Shown here piece after piece: positions 7,930 to 22,043 of a stretch of DNA of 22,127 nucleotides. The stretch covers positions 1-22,127 of IMG/VR virus record IMGVR_UViG_3300024350_000038. One strand, 5' to 3'. The notes beneath the pieces are model-generated. The model did no database searches, was not told where the DNA came from, and saw only the letters and a list, made by a program, of their open reading frames with translations. This DNA is from a virus. Position 1 is the stretch's first letter; every line of letters starts with the position of its first letter. Both the position numbers and the translations under genes were made by a program.

Positions 7930-8697
7930 ATGGCCACCGTCCTTTCGGGCACCTCCGGCGCCCTGTACTACTCTCCCGCTGGCACCAGCGCAACCTTCGG
8001 TGAATCCGCCGTCGATGTTGCCGACGACGAAATCACCATTGAAGCCTATCTGGGCTTCAAAGTTGGCGACCCCGTGAAATTCAGCGTGGTCGATACCACC
8101 ACTGGCGCTGCCGGCACCGGCACTCTGCCTGCTGGTATCACCTCCGGCACCACCTACTACGTGATTGCGTACACCGCCAGCACTGGTGTGCTGCAGGTGT
8201 CCGCTACTGCAGGTGGCACGGTGATTGCAATCACGGATGACGGCACTGCCGTTTCGCCCAACGCCTTCAAGGTTGCATACGCTGCTCCCGCAGTCGTCGG
8301 CTCCGTCCGCGACTGGAGCTTCGAGATCACCCGTTCGGAAATCGACGTTACGACCATCGGTCAAACGATTGGTCAGTACGCACCTTTCCGCACCTATATC
8401 ACCGGCTTCGCCGACGGCTCTGGTTCCGCCACGGTGTACACCACCGATGACGCCACCAACCTGTCCAGCCGGATGATTGAGGACGTGATCCAGCGTTCGC
8501 AGTCTGGTGCCACGATGAAGTTGTACATCGACCGGATCAGCAGCGGCGGCGCCGTGAGTGAAGCACTCAGCCGTTCGATCACCGTTCCCGTGATCGTGAC
8601 TTCCGCCAGCCTGAGCGTGAACCCGGACGACGGCCAAAGCGTTGCCATCAACTTCCGTCCCAGCGAAGCACCCACCTTCGACCTCAGCAAGTCCTGA
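7930..8697 (+). CDS. Major tail (tube) protein
   Basis: A 255-residue protein that should polymerise around the tape measure to form the tail tube. The core includes VGSVRDWSFEITRSEIDVTT and FRTYITGFADGSGSATVY, then MKLYIDRIS and SITVPVIVTSASLSVNP, the strand pattern of phage tube proteins. Residues about 28-115 look like an extra domain inserted in the core: it contains LPAGITSGTTYYVIAYTAST and LQVSATAGGTVIAI, a repeat-like motif seen in other phage surface proteins. Position just before the G/GT genes supports the call. Like the capsid gene it has NNC-biased codons, a tandem TGATAA stop followed by TCAG, and a strong terminator. Confidence 0.88.
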   Translation: MATVLSGTSGALYYSPAGTSATFGESAVDVADDEITIEAYLGFKVGDPVKFSVVDTTTGAAGTGTLPAGITSGTTYYVIAYTASTGVLQVSATAGGTVIAITDDGTAVSPNAFKVAYAAPAVVGSVRDWSFEITRSEIDVTTIGQTIGQYAPFRTYITGFADGSGSATVYTTDDATNLSSRMIEDVIQRSQSGATMKLYIDRISSGGAVSEALSRSITVPVIVTSASLSVNPDDGQSVAINFRPSEAPTFDLSKS

Positions 8698-8721
8698 TAA
8701 TCAGTACGGACGAAGACCCGA

Positions 8722-8750
8722 CCCCGGCCTCACCGCCGGGGTTTTTTATT
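8722..8750 (+). terminator. Rho-independent terminator after major tail gene
   Basis: CCCCGGC (8722-8728), loop CTCACC, GCCGGGG (8735-8741), then TTTTTTATT. A strong intrinsic terminator 24 bases after the stop, with the same T6ATT tail as the one after the capsid gene. Confidence 0.93.
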
Positions 8751-8793: not shown

Positions 8794-9144
8794 ATGCCTG
8801 CTCCCGCAGCATTGAGCGCCATCGAACGCCTCCGCAAGGCGGCCAACCTGGAGCCCAGTAAAAAGACCGTCGAACTATCCGACGGCAGCGTTTTTGAAAT
8901 GTGGGTGACTCCTCTGACGATGGCGGAGCGTGAACGCGCTCAAAAACAAGCCAAATCCGACGACGCCAACGCCTTTGCCCTGCAACTACTGATCAACAAA
9001 GCCCTCGACGAAAACGGCATCCGCCTCTTCAACGCTGGCGAGATTGATGTGCTCAAAAACGAGGTCAAGGACAAAGACCTGCAAGCCCTGATGCTGGCAA
9101 TCCTGACGGACGACGAAACCGGGGCAATCGACCCAAAATCCTGA
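8794..9144 (+). CDS. Tail assembly chaperone, short form (lambda gpG equivalent)
   Basis: A 116-residue protein that in lambda-type phages coats the tape measure and recruits tube subunits. It begins MPAPAALSAIERLRKAANLEP, with a central VELSDGSVFEMWVTPLTMAERERA segment like the beta-hairpin and helix of known tail assembly chaperones. It sits between the major tail protein and the tape measure, the fixed place for this gene. Its last codons CCA AAA TCC TGA contain a C CCA AAA slippery heptamer ten bases before the TGA ends, so part of the product should read on as the GT form. Confidence 0.88.
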   Translation: MPAPAALSAIERLRKAANLEPSKKTVELSDGSVFEMWVTPLTMAERERAQKQAKSDDANAFALQLLINKALDENGIRLFNAGEIDVLKNEVKDKDLQALMLAILTDDETGAIDPKS

Positions 9145-9329
9145 GTGCCGAACTCCGTAAGGACAACTGGCTCCTACTGCAATTCGGCATCGCCAAAGAA
9201 CTGGGACTAACCCTTACACAAGTTCGCACCACCATGACCGCCGAGGAAATCCTCGGCTGGAGCGCCTATTTTCAGATTCTGAACGAGGACCAGGAAAAGG
9301 AGATCGAGAAGGCCAAACGCCGCCGCTAA
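8794..9329 (+). CDS. Tail assembly chaperone, -1 frameshift fusion (lambda gpGT equivalent)
   Basis: Joining 8794-9138 with 9138-9329 by a -1 slip gives a 178-residue protein: 115 residues of the short form, then 63 residues beginning ILSAELRKDNWLLLQFGIAK. This T part includes LTLTQVRTTMTAEEILGW and ends EKAKRRR. It has no start codon of its own near the junction, yet keeps normal codon use and a protein-like sequence, and 'MTAEEILGWSAYF' resembles T-domains of other siphoviruses. In lambda the equivalent GT form binds the tape measure through G and tube subunits through T, and is made in small amounts. The stop lies within the loop of the following terminator hairpin. Confidence 0.85.
9132..9138 (+). 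promoter_or_regulatory. Programmed -1 frameshift site CCCAAAA
   Basis: C CCA AAA fits the X XXY YYZ slippery rule in the G reading frame. Re-pairing as CCC AAA moves into the T frame, open to 9329. A short possible stem GAGT (9143-9146)/ACTC (9152-9155) follows five bases later but is weak. Confidence 0.85.
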
Positions 9330-9344
9330 CCCCGGCGGCTTTTT
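9319..9344 (+). terminator. Rho-independent terminator overlapping GT stop
   Basis: GCCGCCG (9319-9325), loop CTAACCC, CGGCGGC (9333-9339), then TTTTT. The left arm lies in the last Arg codons of the GT form and the loop holds its TAA. A seven-base all-GC stem with five T makes a good terminator. Confidence 0.85.
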
Positions 9345-9350
9345 CGTGCG

Positions 9351-9356
9351 TAAACT
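9351..9356 (+). promoter_or_regulatory. Promoter-like -10 box TAAACT
   Basis: GTGCGTAAACT follows the terminator T-run by six bases. TAAACT ends 25 bases before GTG 9382, the same spacing as the other boxes. This supports 9382 rather than 9346 as the tape-measure start. Confidence 0.42.
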
Positions 9357-9381
9357 GGTTAAACAGAACCGTGCCAGGGCC

Positions 9382-11925
9382 GTGGCCAGTTATTCAGCCG
9401 TAATAAATCTGAACGTTGTCGGCACAGACCGTCTTACAAAAGTCACAGCTGCTATTGGGCAACTAAATCGTTTAACGCAGGATCTAAACAAGTCTTTTAA
9501 TCTACTCGCCCCTGGTGCAGGCAAACTGGGAGATAAACTTCGAATTGCATTTGAACCCATAAAAAACTTTGCCAGAGAAGCTACAAACGGAACGGCAAAG
9601 TTTAGTAATACTCTCCAAGGAGCAGCACAACAAGCTGAAGTTTTTCAGACAGTTTTACGCAATGTAGCTATAAAGAAAGGCGGTTTTTCGGCTCAGACTG
9701 CTGACGTAAAAAACTTTGCAAACGCTCTCGCACAAGCTAGTGCTCAGACAGAGGAACTAGAACGGCGTCTGAACCAGTTGATGCAGGATGCTCGTCAACA
9801 ACAAGGTTTAGCGATTGGTCCTACAACTGAACTTGATTCTTTGGAGGCTGATTTAGCGCGTCGTCAATACTACGAGGAGCAAAAAATAACGCAAGAAAAA
9901 CAAAAGCAAGCAATCTTAGACGCTAGGGCAGTACGCATACAAGAGGAATTAAATAATAGACTTAAACAGCGCAAACAGTTAGAGGAAAGGCGCCAGCGCC
10001 TCCAAGAAGATCTTCTTCTAGGAGCCGGCTTTCCCCTACTTTTCGGAGGAGGAGCCGGTTCGATTGTCGGCGGTGCTGCAGGGGCTCTGGCTGCAGGAGG
10101 CGGACCAGGAGGCTTTGGACTTCAAATTGGTCTGAGCGCACTTGGTACAGTTTTCGATAAAAGCGCCGCTTCAGCTAAAGAGTTTGCCGCGTCGCTTAGG
10201 GAAGACGGTGACGCAGTAGGTTACCTGGAACAGGCTGTAGGTAGGCTTGACCCACGTCTAAAAAGACTTATATCAGGATTGCAGCAGTCCGGACAGACTG
10301 CCCGTGCAGCTGCGTTGGCCAAAGCACAGTTGGTTAGTGTACTAGGCACTGAAGGTGTGGACGCCTTAGAACGAAACGGAAAAGCCACAGATAAACTTAT
10401 CAAAAAGCTCAAAGAATTAGGCCTTCAGATATATTCAGTGTACGCACAATTTACAGCAGGTTTATCAGATCTACTGTACGGCCCCGGACAACGTGGAGGT
10501 GTCCAACCGGATATTACAGATCAAGCAAGAGATGCGGAGGAGTTATCTAAAAAACAAACGCAACTAGCGCAGGCTCAGGCTCTCTTAGCAGGTATAAACA
10601 GTACAAAAGAGTTTGAACGTTATCAAAATCAGCAAAAATACATTGCTTCCCTTGAGAAAGAAATACAACAGAAGAAAAATTTAAGAGCTTTGGACGAAGG
10701 AATTACGCTAGAAGAACGTAAGCGTAGAGATGCGCAAGCTGATGCTGCGTACCAAGCCGAGTTAAATCAATTAAGCCTTGCTGCTGAAGAAAGACGTCTT
10801 CAAATCCAATCTAATCGTTTACAAGTAGGAGCCGCTATTACGGAAGAACACAAGCAACTACTGGAGCTAACTATCCGTGCTTCAGAGCTTGAGAAAGGTC
10901 AATTAAACGGTATGTACGACAGGTACAACCTTATTGACGCTCGTACACGTCTTGAGTTTAATTCGCTGGAAATCGAACGCAGTGCAGCACTAATAGATGC
11001 ACAGAGAAATGGCACCGTTACGGAAACAGTAAAACTTTTCGATTTACGTCTAAAAAACTTGAAGGAAGAAGCCGAGCTAGAAAAACTATCTCTGGCTAGA
11101 CGGTACGAAGCGTTAAAACTCGAAAAAGCGCTGCGGAAAGAACAACGAGTGTTTGCTTTTGAAGAGCAAATTCGCGGAGTACAAAAACCTGAATTTAAGA
11201 CTCCATTGGAGCAGCTTACTATTACTCAAGCGGAAAGACGCCAAGATATTTTAGGTCCTCGTTTCCAGGAATTGGACGTACTTACACAGCAACTAGCAAA
11301 ACCAGAGGCCTTTGACCCTGAGCAGTTGACGGATTTCAAAGATAGGGTGGCCGAACTAAATCAAGAAATCACGGTACTAACAAACAAATTAAATGAAGTA
11401 GATGCTGCAGAAATAACATGGGAAAAGAATACAGCAGGTGTTCAGGCTATGACAGACGCGCTTAATGCTACAGGGCGTGCTGTTACAGATGTACTAGGGG
11501 AACTAATAACAGGCACTCTTGACTGGAATAGTGCGCTACGGCAAACTTTAATCAGTCTCTCGAAAGTATTTCTTAATGCGGGTTTACAGAGCCTGGCAGG
11601 TACGGACGGAATAGGCTTTTTCTCATTCCTCACAGGTGGATTAAAAGGTAAGGCTACAGGAGGTTCCGTTGCAGGCGGAACTCCCTACATGGTTGGCGAG
11701 CGTGGTCCTGAACTATTCGTCCCAGGCCGTTCGGGCACGATTGTCCCCAACAATCAGCTTGGTGCAGGCGGGGCCACCAGTGTGACGGTGAACGTCGATG
11801 CCAGCGGCAGTAGTGTGGAGGGCAACGAACAAGGTGCCAACCAACTCGGTAAGGCAATCGGTCTTGCGGTTCAGCAAGAACTGATCAAGCAAAAACGTCC
11901 TGGCGGTCTACTCGCTGGAGTCTGA
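9382..11925 (+). CDS. Tail tape measure protein
   Basis: A protein of 847 residues (859 if GTG 9346 is used) that sets tail length and is ejected with the DNA. It has long charged coiled-coil stretches (for example QKQAILDARAVRIQEELNNRLKQ-type sequence and 'EERKRRDAQADAA'), a Gly/Ala-rich hydrophobic segment at about residues 210-245 (LLFGGGAGSIVGGAAGALAAGG) that could span a membrane during DNA entry, and a C-terminal GGSVAGGTPYMVGERGPELF with GTIVPNNQL. The latter is a widely shared tape-measure ending. GTG 9382 gives MASYSAVINLNVVGTDRL, a natural start. Base composition is AT-rich with NNT/NNA codons up to about 11690 and then turns GC-rich like the neighbours. Expected tail length from about 850 residues is roughly 125-130 nm at 1.5 angstrom per residue (rule of thumb). 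Confidence 0.92.
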   Translation: MASYSAVINLNVVGTDRLTKVTAAIGQLNRLTQDLNKSFNLLAPGAGKLGDKLRIAFEPIKNFAREATNGTAKFSNTLQGAAQQAEVFQTVLRNVAIKKGGFSAQTADVKNFANALAQASAQTEELERRLNQLMQDARQQQGLAIGPTTELDSLEADLARRQYYEEQKITQEKQKQAILDARAVRIQEELNNRLKQRKQLEERRQRLQEDLLLGAGFPLLFGGGAGSIVGGAAGALAAGGGPGGFGLQIGLSALGTVFDKSAASAKEFAASLREDGDAVGYLEQAVGRLDPRLKRLISGLQQSGQTARAAALAKAQLVSVLGTEGVDALERNGKATDKLIKKLKELGLQIYSVYAQFTAGLSDLLYGPGQRGGVQPDITDQARDAEELSKKQTQLAQAQALLAGINSTKEFERYQNQQKYIASLEKEIQQKKNLRALDEGITLEERKRRDAQADAAYQAELNQLSLAAEERRLQIQSNRLQVGAAITEEHKQLLELTIRASELEKGQLNGMYDRYNLIDARTRLEFNSLEIERSAALIDAQRNGTVTETVKLFDLRLKNLKEEAELEKLSLARRYEALKLEKALRKEQRVFAFEEQIRGVQKPEFKTPLEQLTITQAERRQDILGPRFQELDVLTQQLAKPEAFDPEQLTDFKDRVAELNQEITVLTNKLNEVDAAEITWEKNTAGVQAMTDALNATGRAVTDVLGELITGTLDWNSALRQTLISLSKVFLNAGLQSLAGTDGIGFFSFLTGGLKGKATGGSVAGGTPYMVGERGPELFVPGRSGTIVPNNQLGAGGATSVTVNVDASGSSVEGNEQGANQLGKAIGLAVQQELIKQKRPGGLLAGV

Positions 11926-13869: not shown

Positions 13870-14527
13870 GGTCTACGGCGCACTCCGCAAAAAGCTGGGA
13901 CAGTGCCGTTTTGAATTTGAAGCCGACACCCCAGCGCAAGCACTTAAGGCGTTGTGTGTAAATTTTCCATGGCTAACTCAGTGGTTAATTGATAGCGAGC
14001 AAGACGGAGTTGGCTATCGCGTAACTATCAGCAAGGAAAAAGTTACCAACGAAAACGCAGCCCCACTGGTACTGCCTTGGAGTGAGCGTGAAGTCTTCAG
14101 CATTACCCCCGTACTGACTGGTGCTGGTGGCGGAGGCGGTGGTGGTCAAATCTTGGCTGGTATCGGTCTTGTAGCCCTTGCAATTATTGCCGGTCCCGCT
14201 GCTGGCGGCTTCTTGGGTTTGGGTGCAGGTTTGGGCAGTGCCGCTGGAGCAGGTTTGATTGGTGGCGCAGCAGCAAGCGCTATTGGTTTTATTGGTCTTT
14301 CCTTGATTGTTGGCGGCATCGCTCAAGCGATCTCTCCATCACCTACTCAATCCCAAACTTCCTTTGCAACAGAACGCGGCAGGGAAGCGTCCAAGTTTGA
14401 ATCGTTCAGTTTTTCTGGCATCGTCAACACAGCAAAACAAGGCTTGCCGGTGCCGATTGTTTACGGTCGCGCCTACGTTGGATCAGCCGTTCTCTCCAGC
14501 GGCCTTGACGTGGATCAACTGAAATGA
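13856..14527 (+). CDS. Tail assembly protein, lambda gpI-like
   Basis: A 223-residue protein. The N-terminal about 85 residues form a ubiquitin-like beta-grasp type start (MKVVKVYGALRKKLGQCRFEFEA, then PAQALKALCVNFPWL), as in gpI. Next comes a GAG7 tract (14120-14146), followed by a long Gly/Ala/Ile-rich hydrophobic stretch (about residues 98-165) that could form two or three membrane-type helices. The C-terminus (GIVNTAKQGLPVPIVYGRAYVGS) is the conserved gpI end. In lambda, gpI acts with gpJ, gpK and gpL at tail-tip initiation and is not found in the finished virion. It overlaps J by ATGA. Confidence 0.88.
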   Translation: MKVVKVYGALRKKLGQCRFEFEADTPAQALKALCVNFPWLTQWLIDSEQDGVGYRVTISKEKVTNENAAPLVLPWSEREVFSITPVLTGAGGGGGGGQILAGIGLVALAIIAGPAAGGFLGLGAGLGSAAGAGLIGGAAASAIGFIGLSLIVGGIAQAISPSPTQSQTSFATERGREASKFESFSFSGIVNTAKQGLPVPIVYGRAYVGSAVLSSGLDVDQLK

Positions 14528-17500
14528 CACGGATCGTTGGTGCTGGTGGCGGTGGTGGCGGTGGCGGCTGCTTTCTAGGTCACACCCTTGTTGCCACGCC
14601 TGATGGCCGTCGCCGCATCGACGAATTAAAGGCGGACGATTATGTCCTGAGTTTTGACGACCAGGGCACAGTTCACAGCGCCAAGATCCTGAAGGTCCAC
14701 GAGCACGCGGACGAAAGGGTCGTTCGGTATCGGCTCTGGGGCGGTGATCATCTTGATGCCACACCAAACCACTGGGTTCTCAACCAGTTCAACGCCTTCG
14801 TCGAAATTGGGACGCTCGGCTCAGACGATTGCCTTGTTGACTGGAACAACCACCTCCGCCCGATTGTTGGCAAGGAGGATCTGGGCACTGGCACGGTCTA
14901 CAACCTGACCGTTGAAGGTCATCACACGTTTATTGCCAACGGCATTCGTGTCCATAACGCCGGTCTGGGTCTTGGCATTGCGGGTGCTGGCGGTGGCGGC
15001 GGCGGTGGTGGTGGCGGTAAAGGCGGCGGCGGTGGTGGAGGTGGCGGTGGAAGCCGGACGCCTGTCGAAGCCGATGACTCACTCCAGTCCGTTCAGTACG
15101 CAACCGTGCTGGATCTCCTTAGCGAAGGAGAAATTGACGGCATTGAAAACGGCAACCAAGGCATATTTCTTGATGACACCCCTGTTTTGGATTCGGGCGG
15201 CAATCCAAATTTTGAGGGCTACACGATCATCACCCGCACCGGCACACAGGCACAGAGTTATATCACCAATCTTGCTGGAACAGAAAGCGAGACGGCCGTA
15301 AACGTTGAAGTCACCAATGCCGTCCCAGTCGTTCGTTCAATTAGCGACTCTGACGTAGATCGCGTTCGCATCACTGTGATGGTGCCTGCCCTGCAGGTAT
15401 TTCTTGAGAACGGCGACATCGTTGGTTCTTCCGTCAGCCTTGAAATCCAAGTTCAGTACAACGGCGGCGGTTACAACACGGTTGCTACTGACACGATCAG
15501 CGGCAAAACCAGCAACCGTTACCAGCGTGACTATGTGATCACGTTGAATGGTGCATTTCCTGTAGACATCAAAGTTGTTCGCACAAGCGCAGACGCATCT
15601 ACCGCTCGTACTCAGAACGAAACTTACTGGCAAAGCTACACAGAAATTATTGACGAAAAGCTGCGTTACCCCAACAGCGCACTGGCGTATCTGCGTTTTG
15701 ATGCTCGCCAGTTCAGCAACATTCCAACCCGGAAATATCTGCTGCGTGGCATCAAAGTTCAGCTTCCATCTAACGCCACTGTTGACACCACAACTTATTT
15801 AGGACGTGTCACGTATTCCGGCGTTTGGGATGGAACGTTTGGTGCAGCTACCTGGTGCAATGACCCGGCTTGGTGCTTGTGGGATTTGCTTACCAATACC
15901 CGCTATGGCGCATCCGTGCCTGCCAGCAGCCTGGATCGGTACGACTTCTACTCAATCAGTCAGTATTGCAATGCGCTTGTTAGCAACGGCAAAGGAGGGC
16001 AAGAGCCACGGTTTAGCTGCAACCTGCTGCTAAATAGCCGCGACGATGTTTACAACGTCATCCAAGAGATGACCAGCCTTTTCCGAGGCATCGCGTATTA
16101 CGGCGCTGGTGCGCTGGTACTGCAGCAAGACAAACCGACAGATTCTCAATATCTGCTGGGACCAAGCAATGTTGTTGACGGCATTTTCACGTATAGCGGC
16201 ACATCACAGAAGGCTCGCCACACTACCGCCACCGTTGCATACCAGACCTACGAATCCAAGGGCGAAGTTCAATACGAATATGTGGAGGATTCAGACGCTG
16301 TAGCCAAATACGGCATTTTGAACAAGGACATTAAGTTGCTGGGTTGTTACAGCCAAGGTCAGGCGCATCGGGCTGGTAAGTGGGCACTTCTTAGCGAACA
16401 AAACCTTACTGAAACCGTTACGTTCTCTGTTTCGATTGATAGCGGCGTCATCCTCAGACCTGGGATGGTGATTGACGTTGCTGACCCACTCAAGGCTGCA
16501 ACACGCCGCAGCGGCAGGGTCAAATCTGCAACGACCACCAGCATCACACCTGATAGCAGCGCCAATCTTTCGGTCAACCTCTCCAATAGCCCCACGGTTT
16601 CTGTACTGATGCCAACTGGCTTGGTGGAAACCAGGATCATCAGTGCAATCACCTACGCAACCAATGATGCACGCATTGACGTAGCAACCGCATTTAGCGA
16701 AGCCCCGAACTCTAATTCGGTGTGGTTAATCCAAACGAGCGATATTCAATCCCAACAGTTCCGCGTTTTGAATGTTGCTGATGCAGGCGATGGAATCTAC
16801 GGCGTAACTGCCTTGGCGTATAACGCCACGATTTACGACGCGATTGAATCCAACATCAAGCTGACCGACCGTGACATCACCAACACGCTGGATCCCCCAG
16901 CATCCGTCACGGGTATCACGGGCACAGAATTTCTGTACCAGGACGGCCAAAGTATTTTTTCTGGCTTCAACCTGAGCTGGGTCGCCCCACCAGAACGTGC
17001 CACGTCCTACACAATCCAGTACCGCATTGATAACGACAACTGGACGCTGGTTACAACAGCATCACCCAATATCACTATTCGTCAGACGCGAGCCGGAACG
17101 CTTGCTGTTCAAATCCGTGCATTAAACAGTGTCGGTAAGGCCAGCCCGATTGCCACTGATTCCTTCGAGATTCTCGGCAAAACTGCTGTTCCTGGTGATG
17201 TTCAGAATCTGACGTTTGAAGCAATCAGCGCCAACTCCGGTCGCTTGCGCTGGAACCAGACCGTTGATCTTGACGTAAAGGTTGGCGGCAAGGTTTACAT
17301 CCGCCATAGCAACCTGACTGATGGCACGGGCACCTGGAGCAACAGCGTTGACCTGATTGAGGCGAAATCCGGCAGTGCCACGGAGGCTGTTGTGCCTTTG
17401 GTGGAAGGCGAGATTCTCGTCAAATTTGCTGATGACGGCGGCAGGCTAAGCGTCAATGAAGCCAGCGTGATCATTGATCTGCCCGATGCACTGGATCCAC

Positions 17501-18309
17501 TGCTGATTCAAGATCGCCGGGAGGATCAGGACGCTCCGCCGTTCCAAGGCAATCGCGTTGATGTGTTTTACAGCGATGAGTTTGATGCGCTGACCCTTGA
17601 CGGTGATGACGACTTGGATGACATTGCCGATGTCGATGCGATTCCTTCATTCGATACCCTCGGCAATATCCTGTCTTCAGGCACATATAGCTTTGCCAAC
17701 ACGCTGGATCTGGGCAATGTCTTTGCCTTGGACCTTTCGCGTTACTTTGTCACTCGCGGCTATTTCCCAAGCGACCTGATCGACAGCCGCAACGAACTTG
17801 TCGATACCTGGGATGACTGGGACGGCAGCACGATTGATCAAGTCAACGCCGCATTGCAACTGCGCCGCACCAACGATGATCCAAGCGGAACACCGACCTG
17901 GAGCGATTGGCAGAGCTTTGTGAATGGCACGTTCAACGGACGCGGCTTCCAATTCCGCACGCAACTCACCAGTAACGACACAGCGCAGAACATCCTGATC
18001 GATGAACTGGGCTATCAAGCCAGGTTGCAACGCCGAGTGGAGCAGCCCACCACGCCTGTCACCAGCACAGCCGGAGCAACTGCCGTGACCTTTACCCACC
18101 CCTATTTCACGGGTACTGCAACGTTGGGTGGAGTGAACGCCTACCTGCCTAGCATCGGGATTACTGCCCAGAACATGCAGAACGGCGACTACTTCACTGT
18201 TACAGGCGTAAGCGGCAGTGGCTTTACGGTGACGTTCTTCAACGCCTCTGATACGGCGGTCTCTCGGAACTTTGTGTGGACTGCTGTTGGATATGGACGC
18301 GGCGGTTAA
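14524..18309 (+). CDS. Tail tip/host-specificity protein J with an embedded intein-like domain
   Basis: A 1261-residue central tail-tip protein. Order: a short Gly-rich leader (1-15), a Hint/intein-like domain (16-145), a second Gly-rich tract (146-176), and the J core from about 178 (RTPVEADDSLQSVQYATVLD, then LLSEGEIDGI), which corresponds to residues near position 10 of lambda J. A DPAWCLWDLLTNTRYGASV hub motif follows at about 450. Two fibronectin III-like domains lie at about 790-880 and 888-985, and there is a C-terminal region with acidic linker (DGDDDLDDIADVD) and beta-rich end. J trimers form the tail spike hub and carry receptor specificity. No in-frame ATG or GTG occurs between codon 2 and the J core, so the core has to be translated through the Hint domain. 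The 4-base overlap with I is typical of coupling. Confidence 0.93.
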   Translation: MTRIVGAGGGGGGGGCFLGHTLVATPDGRRRIDELKADDYVLSFDDQGTVHSAKILKVHEHADERVVRYRLWGGDHLDATPNHWVLNQFNAFVEIGTLGSDDCLVDWNNHLRPIVGKEDLGTGTVYNLTVEGHHTFIANGIRVHNAGLGLGIAGAGGGGGGGGGGKGGGGGGGGGGSRTPVEADDSLQSVQYATVLDLLSEGEIDGIENGNQGIFLDDTPVLDSGGNPNFEGYTIITRTGTQAQSYITNLAGTESETAVNVEVTNAVPVVRSISDSDVDRVRITVMVPALQVFLENGDIVGSSVSLEIQVQYNGGGYNTVATDTISGKTSNRYQRDYVITLNGAFPVDIKVVRTSADASTARTQNETYWQSYTEIIDEKLRYPNSALAYLRFDARQFSNIPTRKYLLRGIKVQLPSNATVDTTTYLGRVTYSGVWDGTFGAATWCNDPAWCLWDLLTNTRYGASVPASSLDRYDFYSISQYCNALVSNGKGGQEPRFSCNLLLNSRDDVYNVIQEMTSLFRGIAYYGAGALVLQQDKPTDSQYLLGPSNVVDGIFTYSGTSQKARHTTATVAYQTYESKGEVQYEYVEDSDAVAKYGILNKDIKLLGCYSQGQAHRAGKWALLSEQNLTETVTFSVSIDSGVILRPGMVIDVADPLKAATRRSGRVKSATTTSITPDSSANLSVNLSNSPTVSVLMPTGLVETRIISAITYATNDARIDVATAFSEAPNSNSVWLIQTSDIQSQQFRVLNVADAGDGIYGVTALAYNATIYDAIESNIKLTDRDITNTLDPPASVTGITGTEFLYQDGQSIFSGFNLSWVAPPERATSYTIQYRIDNDNWTLVTTASPNITIRQTRAGTLAVQIRALNSVGKASPIATDSFEILGKTAVPGDVQNLTFEAISANSGRLRWNQTVDLDVKVGGKVYIRHSNLTDGTGTWSNSVDLIEAKSGSATEAVVPLVEGEILVKFADDGGRLSVNEASVIIDLPDALDPLLIQDRREDQDAPPFQGNRVDVFYSDEFDALTLDGDDDLDDIADVDAIPSFDTLGNILSSGTYSFANTLDLGNVFALDLSRYFVTRGYFPSDLIDSRNELVDTWDDWDGSTIDQVNAALQLRRTNDDPSGTPTWSDWQSFVNGTFNGRGFQFRTQLTSNDTAQNILIDELGYQARLQRRVEQPTTPVTSTAGATAVTFTHPYFTGTATLGGVNAYLPSIGITAQNMQNGDYFTVTGVSGSGFTVTFFNASDTAVSRNFVWTAVGYGRGG
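14539..15051 (+). repeat. Gly-Ala-polyGly tracts flanking the Hint domain
   Basis: GAG8 (14539-14568) stands directly before the Hint Cys. A second GAG10 copy (14983-15018), then Lys and ten more Gly (to 15051), follows 24 bases after the Hint domain. The protein I gene holds a third copy (GAG7, 14120-14146). The 14-base string GGTGCTGGTGGCGG is identical in I and in the first J copy. Confidence 0.85.
14569..14958 (+). other. Hint domain, A-type BIL or mini-intein, inside J
   Basis: J residues 16-145 (130 aa, no homing endonuclease). Block A is CFLGHTLVATPDGRRRIDEL with the N-terminal Cys16. Block B is LDATPNHWVL with the T-x-x-H pair Thr80/His83. Block F/G is VYNLTVEGHHTFIANGI then RVHN, with the block F His133/His134 and the terminal His144-Asn145. 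All catalytic positions for N-S acyl shift and Asn cyclisation are present. The next residue is Ala146, not Cys, Ser or Thr, so standard trans-esterification is not possible. This is the hallmark of A-type bacterial intein-like domains, which are known to cleave at their ends and sometimes splice by an alternative route. Confidence 0.9.
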
Positions 18310-19114: not shown

Positions 19115-21573
19115 TGGGCGTCCCCGGATCTGCCAACTTAATGCTGTTTGGCGGCGCACAGGCGTACGAGATCGACCAGAGCTTGCGGTTCAACTCGGCG
19201 GATTCGGCGTACCTCAATCGGACTCCGGCGAGTGCGGGGAACAGGCGCACCTATACCATTTCAATGTGGGTTAAGCGGGGAAAACTCGGACAAAGTTCCC
19301 GTCTGTTTGGATCTTATACAGGTCCTAATTCTTATTTTGAGGCGTTTTTTACTAGCTCAGACACACTGCAGTGGTATTACTGGAACGGAACAGGATATAG
19401 TTACAACAGAAACAGCACTCAGGTCTTCCGAGATGCGAGTGCTTGGTATCACCTTGTTTTTGTATTCAATAGCCCCTCCGGGACTGCTTCACAGCGGATG
19501 CGGATTTATGTAAACAATCAAGAGATAACATCTTTTTCTGCTTCAACGGATCCTAGCTCTAACTTTGATTGTTTATGGAACAGCACCTCTAACAATGTGA
19601 TCGGTGATTTGCTTTATGTAGGATCGCCGGGTTACGGCTTCGATGGCTACATGGCGGAGATTCACGCTATCGACGGCTCTGTCCTTGACCCATCATCCTT
19701 CGGTGAAACCGACCCCGACACCGGCGCCTGGATTCCGAAGCGTTACGCAGGATCCTACGGCACCAACGGCTTCTATCTGACGTTCGCGGATAATAGCAAC
19801 ACCACAGCCACCACGCTTGGCAAAGATTACAGCGGCAACGGCAACAACTGGACGCCCAATGCCTTCAGCGTCACTGCTGGTGCAGGCAATGATGTCCTGA
19901 GCGACACGCCGACGACGAACTGGTGTACGTTGAATCCGATTATCGCTAATACAGGTTATTTAATTCCAGCAACGAATGGAAATCTAGAGGTTTCTGTTGC
20001 AGCCGGTTCAAACCTTTTTGTAGGTGCCGCTGGGACACAAGCAATTACTGCGGGCAAGTTTTATTGGGAAATCACTCCTACAGCCATCTCCACCTCAGCA
20101 GGAACTTGGATGGAGGTGGGAATTATTCAAACACTGGCCATATACCCAAATGCAACAAGCATAGGCGCCTTTAACGGCGGCTTTGCATATACAAATAATG
20201 CGTACAAGGCCAGAAGCGGCTCCTATTCCGCTTATGGTGCAACGTGGACAACCAATGATGTTATTGGCGTTGCTCTCGATGCAGACAGCGGATCGATTAC
20301 TTTTTATAAGAATGGTGTTTCGCAGGGTGCAGCTTACACGGATCTCTTAAACTACAACCTGCCTGCTGGATACTATCCTGCTATTGCCATTTATCGAAAC
20401 ACAGGGACAACACAATCTGCTGTATTTAACTTCGGCCAACGCGCCTTTGCGTACACCCCACCGACCGGCTACAAGGCACTGAACACCGCCAACCTGCCCG
20501 AGCCGTCGATTAAGAAGCCGAGCAGTTACATGGACGTGGTTGCGTATTCCGGCGCCGCATCAAATCAAAGCATTACGTTGCTCGGGTTTCAACCTGATTT
20601 TCTGTGGATTAAACGAAGGAACTCCACTAACAGCCACGTCCTTCAAGATGCAGTGCGAGGTGCCGGTAAGACTTTATTTTCCAATGCAACTAATGCTGAA
20701 TCCGGCAATACCTCAGATCTTATTTCTTCTTTTGATGCAAACGGTTTTACTGTCAATGACACCTACTTAGGTGGATCGGGCGGCGGGGCAACCAACGCCA
20801 GCGGAGGCACCTACGCCGCATGGTGCTGGGACGCAGGCGGAGCTGGCTCAAGCAACAACGCAGGCACCATCACCAGCACGGTCAGCGCCAACCCCTCCGC
20901 TGGGTTCTCGATTGTTACCTATACGGGGAACGGCACAAATGGCGCAACGGTTGGGCATGATCTAGGTGTTAAACCGGACATGGTAATTATTAAAAAACGA
21001 GTCAATAATACTGCAACTAATACAGGAACCTGGATCGTACAGCACAAACAAACTACCGCCGGGGTCAATGCTAACGCAAGCACATTTACTTTGACAAGCT
21101 ATACAAATGGTGCGTTATATCTCAATCTTACAAATGCATTGTCATCATATGGTTTTGATAATCAAGTAAACGGTAATACCGACACTTTTGTCGCCTACTG
21201 CTTCTCCGAAGTCGCGGGTTACAGCAAGTTCGGCAGCTACACCGGCAATGGTTCCAGCGATGGTCCGTTTGTGCATACAGGGTTTAAAATTAGGTTCTTG
21301 TTACTTAAGAAGGCAACCACTGGAGTAGCGAACGGGAACTGGTACCTCTTGGATGCAACAAGAAATGAATACAATCCCGTCGATAAGTACATCTTACCAA
21401 ACAGTAGTGCCGCTGAAGGAACAACAACCGCTCACATAGATTTCTTGTCTAATGGATTCAAGGTGAGAACCACAAACACTGATTACAACGAATCCGGTCA
21501 GACGTACATCTTCGCCGCCTTTGCCGAAATGAGTTTCGGTGGTCAAAATGTACCCCCTGCAACAGCGCGATGA
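19114..21573 (+). CDS. Large receptor-binding/fibre protein with LamG, SPRY-like and triple-repeat domains
   Basis: An 819-residue protein. Residues about 20-215 look like a concanavalin A/LamG fold (LRFNSADSAYLNRTP, TISMWVKRG, WYHLVFVFNS, IYVNNQEIT, YMAEIHAIDGS). After a linker, about 285-450 look like a B30.2/SPRY-type fold (KFYWEITPTAIS, EVGIIQT, WTTNDVIGVALDADSGSITF, YPAIAIYRN). Residues about 473-815 are three diverged tandem repeats. All parts are beta-sandwich binding modules, so binding of host-surface glycans or proteins is the likely role. Composition alternates between GC-rich linkers and AT-rich domain cores, pointing to module exchange. No enzyme motif was seen. It ends in ATGA overlap with the HNH gene. 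Confidence 0.8.
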   Translation: MGVPGSANLMLFGGAQAYEIDQSLRFNSADSAYLNRTPASAGNRRTYTISMWVKRGKLGQSSRLFGSYTGPNSYFEAFFTSSDTLQWYYWNGTGYSYNRNSTQVFRDASAWYHLVFVFNSPSGTASQRMRIYVNNQEITSFSASTDPSSNFDCLWNSTSNNVIGDLLYVGSPGYGFDGYMAEIHAIDGSVLDPSSFGETDPDTGAWIPKRYAGSYGTNGFYLTFADNSNTTATTLGKDYSGNGNNWTPNAFSVTAGAGNDVLSDTPTTNWCTLNPIIANTGYLIPATNGNLEVSVAAGSNLFVGAAGTQAITAGKFYWEITPTAISTSAGTWMEVGIIQTLAIYPNATSIGAFNGGFAYTNNAYKARSGSYSAYGATWTTNDVIGVALDADSGSITFYKNGVSQGAAYTDLLNYNLPAGYYPAIAIYRNTGTTQSAVFNFGQRAFAYTPPTGYKALNTANLPEPSIKKPSSYMDVVAYSGAASNQSITLLGFQPDFLWIKRRNSTNSHVLQDAVRGAGKTLFSNATNAESGNTSDLISSFDANGFTVNDTYLGGSGGGATNASGGTYAAWCWDAGGAGSSNNAGTITSTVSANPSAGFSIVTYTGNGTNGATVGHDLGVKPDMVIIKKRVNNTATNTGTWIVQHKQTTAGVNANASTFTLTSYTNGALYLNLTNALSSYGFDNQVNGNTDTFVAYCFSEVAGYSKFGSYTGNGSSDGPFVHTGFKIRFLLLKKATTGVANGNWYLLDATRNEYNPVDKYILPNSSAAEGTTTAHIDFLSNGFKVRTTNTDYNESGQTYIFAAFAEMSFGGQNVPPATAR
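20532..21560 (+). repeat. Three diverged tandem repeats in the large fibre protein
   Basis: Repeat starts at about residues 473 (VVAYSG...LGFQPDFLWIKRR), 598 (IVTYTGNG...LGVKPDMVIIKKR) and 701 (FGSYTGNG...TGFKIRFLLLKKA). Each continues with a W/V-x-L-x-D/H strand and ends with an aromatic strand (YAAWCW, FVAYCF, IFAAFA). Each is about 105-125 residues. They are related in protein sequence but diverged in DNA. Confidence 0.75.
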
Positions 21574-22043
21574 ATTACAAGCACGGACTTAAAAATCACC
21601 CACTGTATATAACGTGGAAGTCTATGAAGGCACGTTGCTATAACCAGAGTTCTACTAATTACGAACGATACGGTGCCCGAGGTATTACAGTTTGCGATGA
21701 ATGGCGCAATGATTTTGCAGCTTTTTTGCGAGACATGGGAGAAAAACCATCGCCAAAACATTCCCTAGAGCGAAAAAATAATGCTGGTCCTTACTCGCCT
21801 GATAACTGCTGCTGGGCTACAGCATCTGAACAGGTAAAAAATCGAAGAGCTTATGTAATGCCAAACAAGCAAGGCGAAAAACATCCTATGGCGAAATTAT
21901 CCGACGAGGATGCTGAAATGATCAGAGCACTTGGCGGCGTACTTAAAAGACGTGAAATTGCCAAAATGTTCTCAATAAGTGTGACTACGGTTGGCGACAT
22001 TATTCAAGGCCGTCGCCGTACTCACCCAGCCAACGCCCGCTGA
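21570..22043 (+). CDS. Free-standing HNH-type endonuclease with C-terminal helix-turn-helix
   Basis: A 157-residue protein. The N-terminal part (HPLYITWKSMKARCYNQSST, NYERYGARGITVCDEW) and HSLERKNNAGPYSPDNCCWATASEQ are the signature of phage-borne HNH homing-type nucleases ('G.Y.RYG.RGI.V...W' and 'LDR.DN.G.Y.P.NCRWAT'). Here the usual Asp of 'LDRIDN' is Glu, and RIDN is RKNN, so activity needs checking. Residues about 105-155 (HPMAKLSDEDAEMIRALGG, then REIAKMFSISVTTVGDII) form a DNA-binding helix-turn-helix common in this family. Composition is more AT-rich than the tail genes, and it is placed directly after the fibre stop (ATGA overlap), as expected of an intruding mobile gene. Confidence 0.85.
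   Translation: MNYKHGLKNHPLYITWKSMKARCYNQSSTNYERYGARGITVCDEWRNDFAAFLRDMGEKPSPKHSLERKNNAGPYSPDNCCWATASEQVKNRRAYVMPNKQGEKHPMAKLSDEDAEMIRALGGVLKRREIAKMFSISVTTVGDIIQGRRRTHPANAR

Follow-up and report, generated by a model that had tools for sequence, protein, structure and literature searches.

How does the ribosome get from a short tail gene of this virus, G, into the reading frame that overlaps its end, T? The window, by which we mean the whole stretch of 22,127 nucleotides analysed here, is an IMG/VR virus record in which the overlapping G and T frames sit directly upstream of a tape measure gene. An earlier note, made from the sequence of the window, argued that G and T form a tail assembly chaperone pair and that T is reached by a programmed -1 frameshift. 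The features that bear on this question are the following:

7930..8697, + strand: probable major tail protein (by position only)
8794..9144, + strand: gene G, tail assembly chaperone, frame 0, 116 aa (open reading frame from ATG 8794; phrog matches)
9132..9138, + strand: slippery heptamer C_CCA_AAA, putative -1 frameshift site (sequence; conservation in relatives)
9138..9329, + strand: T extension, -1 frame, 63 codons plus stop (frame reading; phrog matches; dN/dS)
8794..9329, + strand: predicted GT fusion, 178 aa, 115 codons in frame 0 plus 63 codons in frame -1
9319..9339, + strand: terminator-like hairpin overlapping the T stop codon, then TTTTT, between GT and tape measure
9346..11925, + strand: tape measure protein, 859 aa from a putative GTG start (phrog_8892, tail length tape measure, E 6.3e-10)

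The end of gene G

Gene G ends in GAC CCA AAA TCC TGA (9130-9144), and its stop, the TGA at 9142-9144, lies one codon past C_CCA_AAA. The -1 frame is open from 9048 to its own stop at 9327-9329, and the 63-residue T reads ILSAELR...KRRR. On re-reading the sequence we found that the earlier note had placed the end of G, the heptamer, the end of the -1 frame and the 63-residue extension correctly.

Profile searches match G to phrog_344 ('tail assembly chaperone', E 8.1e-6) and to phrog_20784 (unknown function, E 2.7e-34). T matches phrog_337 (tail protein, E 4.1e-4), phrog_26456 (unknown function, E 7.2e-7) and, weakly, phrog_14766 (E 0.0046). A Pfam search gave no significant match for G or T, and the product of 7930..8697 had no family match in Pfam or phrog profile searches; in cyanophage S-2L the gene directly 5' of G is annotated as a major tail protein. 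Terminator-like hairpins with T-runs at 8720-8743 (before G) and 9319-9339 bracket G/GT inside the tail operon. There are 5 terminator-like sites on both strands between 7300 and 9700 against a mean of 2.8 (sd 1.9) in shuffles, a count that is not significant.

It is important to realize how little the heptamer says in a single sequence. By itself the 7-mer is no commoner in the window than expected (3 copies against 4.85). When G was randomly recoded with synonymous codons at the window's own codon usage (2000 trials), CCCAAAR appeared at this DPK in 12% of the recodings, and some in-frame X_XXY_YYZ appeared within the overlap in 23%. Because such sites arise this often, the heptamer of the window is weak evidence when taken alone, and without its relatives it could be chance.

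Relatives of G and T

Relatives were collected by scanning IMG/VR with G, with T and with the T of two divergent members, and phage records were added. The 271 sequences, the window included, were reduced to 203 distinct loci by dropping 64 duplicates, identical over the stretch between the T stop and a point 60 nt upstream of the G stop, and 4 sequences without a G match (L127, L158 and L238, whose contigs begin at T, and L190). The three large viral scans supplied their best 80 loci each, so the counts given here are not frequencies in nature.

Three groups make up most of this collection. In the -1 group (112 distinct loci listed, window included) G resembles that of the window and T lies in the -1 frame. 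The FW group (21 distinct loci listed) combines such a G with a T in the +1 frame, and the marine group (66 distinct loci listed), also with T in the +1 frame, has a G like that of Marine virus AG-345-A17. 'FW' and 'marine' are working labels only and are not evidence of habitat. T is also in the -1 frame in four phage records: KBS-S-2A, S-2L, S-H1 and MED4-184.

G and T share one frame in none of the 203 distinct loci listed. For all 203 the two frames could be joined in silico into one open reading through a candidate shift site, which in seven of them is a four-base site only. Median predicted lengths, cut-off contigs included, are 175.5 aa (-1), 177 aa (FW) and 179 aa (marine). An ATG start lies within the contig in 186 of the 199 loci of the three groups (13 are without one), and the fusions so defined are 135-187 aa long in 106 -1 loci (the next shortest after 135 is 169), 177-178 aa in 20 FW loci and 177-182 aa in 60 of the 66 marine loci. 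The host of the virus is probably a cyanobacterium, going by its cyanophage relatives only; a scan of genome contigs gave 154 pattern matches, none of them a relative of G, and so no host.

Conservation and selection in the -1 group

The earlier note made its case depend in part on whether the heptamer is kept in relatives that keep T. Both are kept in 106 of the 112 -1 loci listed, window included, where CCCAAA[A/G/C] stands at the same place: CCCAAAA in 86, CCCAAAG in 19 and CCCAAAC in 1. The other 6 of the 112 are without it, have CCCCAAG instead, and count against -1 slippage. The Asp codon before the heptamer is GAC in 112/112, against 85% of 1306 background codons, and CCA is used at the site in 106/112, whereas it makes up 16% of the 327 remaining Pro codons of these genes. 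These loci are related, hence they are not 112 independent tests. The stop of G is one codon beyond the site in all 112 listed. In 8 of the 112 the CCC of the heptamer, just 10 nt ahead of the G stop, is where the -1 frame becomes open; in these loci the shift must fall at the heptamer or at the single codon after it.

The T frame is under purifying selection in this group. Its median dN/dS is 0.096 (5742 of 6216 pairs) and that of the G body is 0.066 (5425 of 6216 pairs), using only pairs with dS of 0.1-2. The absence of stops in T holds by construction and carries no weight. We take the conservation of the site and the selection on T as joint support for -1 slippage of the ribosome on the heptamer.

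These same data bear on three other ways to explain the frames. The window is a metagenomic virus record, which leaves room for a sequencing or assembly error, or for a decayed G/T gene. However, the same frame relation recurs across many separate contigs, 112 distinct loci listed, with the low dN/dS of T just given; such recurrence is strong counter-evidence, and we see next to no chance that error or decay accounts for the change of frame. The extra frame might instead be reached by slippage of RNA polymerase, and the site does hold a short run of A (CCCAAAA). Polymerase slippage usually needs runs of A longer than the four here, and slippage on A would not require CCA to be in frame, yet it is kept in 106/112. 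We regard this explanation as extremely unlikely.

The third possibility is that T is translated separately, by internal initiation or reinitiation, and that no fusion is made. The close overlap of the G stop with T also looks like a pair of coupled genes, CTG at 9141 is a possible rare start, and two chaperone reading frames are proposed to be separately expressed in some Microbacterium phages, as far as the available part of that paper goes (PMC7302621). The T frame of the window, though, has no ATG, GTG or TTG from its opening at 9048 to 9138, and the first ATG is codon 33, in the conserved part. A model based on starts also leaves unexplained why GAC CCA AAR is retained in 105 of the 112 loci and why the overlap is only 10 nt in 8 of them. 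Separate translation is therefore very unlikely in our opinion. The caution behind it still applies: the G/T overlap alone does not imply slippage, because some Microbacterium phages have chaperone pairs with an evident frameshift and some have pairs without one, according to the same partial source (PMC7302621).

The six exceptional loci (L038, L045, L052, L065, L076 and L077) read GAC CCC AAG AAC TAG. Judging from these codons, two tRNAs can no longer slip in tandem, but one tRNA-Pro could still slide from CCC to CCC. Their T continues ...PQELAKELR, in register with the PKELSAELR of the CCCAAAG loci. In the data seen from PMC4066793, C_CC.C shifts weakly in E. coli, given a strong stimulator after it.

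A probable lambda-type frameshift

Ribosomal slippage of the lambda G/GT type, programmed and in the -1 direction, is very probably what the window encodes; it is a known kind of event and this is another instance of it. Most ribosomes would end G at the TGA at 9142-9144. At GAC CCA AAA a minority would slip, with tRNA-Pro and tRNA-Lys re-pairing from CCA/AAA to CCC/AAA one base back, and would then read on through ATC CTG AGT ... to 9329, making GT of 178 aa. The G protein would bind the tape measure protein, and GT, present in few copies, would recruit the major tail protein through its T domain. The ratio of G to GT would thus matter for tail assembly, because G and T are proposed to bind different partners; these roles are borrowed from lambda as described in the accessible part of PMC5009743. 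The coordinates, frames, site conservation, T selection and gene order are observed, and from there we infer the slip and its efficiency.

That G and GT belong to a tail chaperone is supported by the conservation of the heptamer together with T, by phrog_344 for G and by phrog_337 for T. The earlier note raised the efficiency of a heptamer that starts with CCC. Such a start is not a weakness, since C_CC.A_AA.R heptamers shift in E. coli (PMC4066793, seen in part). There Sharma et al. 2014 list C_CC.A_AA.G among the most efficient E. coli heptamers, at 54% with the IS3 pseudoknot, which is the top of the range, and C_CC.A_AA.A among the motifs above 0.10% without stimulators. C_CCA_AAG is also called highly shift-prone in E. 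coli in the review PMC5009743, in the portion available to us. All of these efficiencies are E. coli values and not cyanobacterial ones. For lambda the G:GT ratio is given as 30:1 (PMC5009743, same portion), and frameshifting of 6% and 7% is given for two HK97-like chaperone genes (PMC3711429, in part). One suggestion about how to see the fusion has to be corrected. The peptide DPK|ILSAELR was offered as a tryptic peptide spanning the junction, but trypsin cleaves behind the K of DPK. The resulting ILSAELR would be specific to T, and a peptide that spans the junction calls for Asp-N (DPKILSAELRK) or Glu-C.

Relatives with T in the +1 frame

In the 21 FW loci G shares 76-85% identity with that of the window, and T follows A[C/A]C_AAA_AGC in the +1 frame. 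All 21 read GAC A[C/A]C AAA AGC NCT TGA, 18 with ACC and 3 with AAC. We propose from these codons that tRNA-Lys would slip from AAA to the overlapping AAA in the +1 frame, leading to GCN CTT GAG.... The predicted fusion (for example DTKALEAQLR) is in register with the window's DPKILSAELR.

The marine loci are more distant, with G 35-42% identical to the window's. All 66 listed read TTR AAA AGN, where AGN is AGC in 63, AGT in 2 and AGA in 1, and the stop follows AAA at a spacing of one codon in 53 loci and two codons in 13. A stop in the +1 frame, TAA or TGA, stands directly 5' of AAA in 66/66. This confines a +1 shift to AAA or the one or two codons following it, and among these AAA_A is the only obvious site for re-pairing. 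Forward-slip motifs are taken as runs of three or four equal bases in the part of PMC10885494 available, and AAA_A fits because it is such a run.

We also considered a -2 shift for the +1 groups and rejected it. Neither ACC/AAA nor AAA/AGC re-pairs two bases upstream, and in the marine loci the T frame has a stop just 5' of AAA in 66/66.

Selection on T is present in both groups and is less strict than in the -1 group. The median dN/dS of T is 0.258 in FW (G body 0.082) and 0.214 in marine loci (G body 0.176).

A probable change of slip direction

The slip direction thus seems to differ within one chaperone family, and some close relatives of the window seem to slip forward. How many times did it change? 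In free G trees the direction changes twice (92 thinned rows of 203, and 49 rows), with the FW +1 rows inside or beside window-like -1 rows, but these trees use 104-111 columns and are poorly resolved. When all +1 rows were placed on one side of a branch, the 59-row G tree gained 6.1 log units over the free quick tree (p-AU 0.62), which had missed this better tree; the 49-row tree was 2.1 log units worse (p-AU 0.10). A single switch is not rejected by the G trees, and two switches are not demanded.

The neighbors of G differ in how they group. The FW T is 45-65% identical to the window's (21/21), against 70-93% for the -1 loci (among 45 of the 112 listed, the near-identical L001 apart). For the tail terminator gene the order is reversed: 70-84% in FW (16 of 21 loci with a match) and 43-55% in nearly all -1 loci with a match (among 45 of the 112 listed), the exceptions being L010 at 80% and L001. 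The gene before G separates the groups less cleanly than T or the tail terminator does, with 65-88% in FW and mostly 63-73%, up to 82%, in the -1 loci (45 of the 112 listed, L001 apart). In the T tree the FW rows fall outside the tight window-like T group with moderate support. An exchange at the G/T junction would possibly give this discordance of the FW loci between T and the upstream genes. Instead of an exchange, the T of the FW group could have evolved faster, and its higher dN/dS also suggests this.

Put together, we propose the following as a single claim, and give it even chances. The flip between -1 (C_CCA_AAR) and +1 (AAA_AGC) happened at 76-85% identity of G, with fusion length and layout kept, by exchange, at the G/T boundary, of T and its shift site as one piece; a broad group of marine-type relatives uses AAA_AGN for a +1 shift, with a strong SD-like stretch about 22 nt before AAA as its possible stimulator.

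This family is a natural experiment. Similar G proteins stand before -1 heptamers, a one-tRNA site (C_CCC_AAG) and +1 sites, while the fusions are of similar length, and this lets one compare the direction and the efficiency of slippage within a single protein context. In the review PMC5009743, as far as it was available, -1, -2 or +1 shifts are used by different tailed phages; what is new here is a difference between close relatives and not just between phages.

Search for stimulators

The earlier note had remarked that no strong structure lies downstream of the heptamer, and this holds. The single-sequence fold of the window 3' of the heptamer has no significant stem (z = -0.92), and a consensus fold of 34 of the 112 -1 loci has no pair changed on both sides; nor does that of 23 of the 66 marine loci. 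We also compared the mean fold z just downstream with that of a control further into T, using plain shuffles and not dinucleotide ones. The values are -1.51 vs -1.51 in the -1 clade (30/112), -1.74 vs -0.22 in FW (21/21) and -0.49 vs -0.32 in marine loci (30/66). Unlike the -1 clade, the FW loci fold more stably just downstream than in the control, and this stem is a possible +1-specific stimulator. The FW contrast in downstream fold sets L003 and L004 against L039, L047, L055 and the L167 type.

Upstream matches to the anti-SD differ among the groups. None of 73 distinct segments of the -1 clade reaches -8 kcal/mol or below. Neither the folds nor these matches thus yielded a stimulator for the window, which is a point against -1 slippage. 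In FW 10 of 18 distinct segments do so within 24 nt, and 28% of recodings are as strong, so recoding does not separate this match from chance. In the marine group 37 of 38 distinct segments reach -8 kcal/mol or less in a stretch that lies 48-21 nt before AAA ends; the recoded mean is -6.2, and 9% of synonymous recodings are as strong. L166 and its relatives among L191-L270 carry the SD-like variants AGGGAGGT, AGAGGAGT and AAGGAGGT, ending about 22 nt before AAA, and the stretch is kept though the encoded residues differ. No start codon stands at normal spacing from it among the 14 marine segments inspected. To our knowledge a spacing of about 22 nt between SD and AAA is known for neither direction of slip.

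Comparison with known systems

The heptamer of lambda, as the earlier note gives it, is GGGAAAG. The window differs in having C_CCA_AAA and a T of 63 aa, and its likeness to lambda does not come from a direct comparison with the lambda proteins. What is shared with lambda G/GT is a short gene directly before the tape measure, a -1 shift just before the G stop and an extension made only as a fusion, as the accessible part of PMC5009743 has it.

In KBS-S-2A (HQ634187) and S-H1 (MK105819) the homologues of G and T keep the order seen in the window, and T is again in the -1 frame, but the in-frame slip site is A_AAA_AAC. The G of S-H1 is 25-29% identical. Cyanophage S-2L (MW334946; G 37-38% identical, T in the -1 frame) has C_CCA_AAG at the corresponding DPK, but its G runs 15 codons past the site. 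The site of MED4-184 is GCA AAG, an A_AAG tetramer. Over T, the KBS-S-2A record has nothing annotated and the S-H1 record has a separate hypothetical protein, and in S-2L only G is annotated. Our reading would fix the annotation of the GT fusion, which is left out of the KBS-S-2A, S-2L, MED4-184 and S-H1 records.

Marine virus AG-345-A17 (MH327491) and 65 further distinct loci share homologous G and T with the window but have T in the +1 frame behind TTR_AAA_AG[C/T/A]. Halorubrum virus HSTV-2 is a more distant parallel, an archaeal myovirus that we liken by description only; its tail chaperone very likely uses +1 frameshifting, according to the available portion of PMC5009743. Our literature search, which covered few subscription journals, found nothing on frameshifting in this cyanophage G/T family.

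Other features of the window

Two other reading frames of the window deserve mention. The large tail protein at 14524-18309 has a Hint/intein-like domain at its start (14524-15000), between glycine-rich stretches, which begins GCFLGHTL and ends HTFIANGIRVHNAG. It matches Pfam Intein_splicing with E 2.3e-8 and 34.5 bits, below the cut-off of 35.8. Ordinary intein splicing needs Cys, Ser or Thr after the final HN, and the residue here is Ala. Ordinary splicing is doubtful on this reading of the residues, and the domain may be a BIL-like or non-splicing Hint domain. At the right end, the 157 aa product of 21570-22043 gives the impression, from its sequence, of an HNH-type endonuclease.
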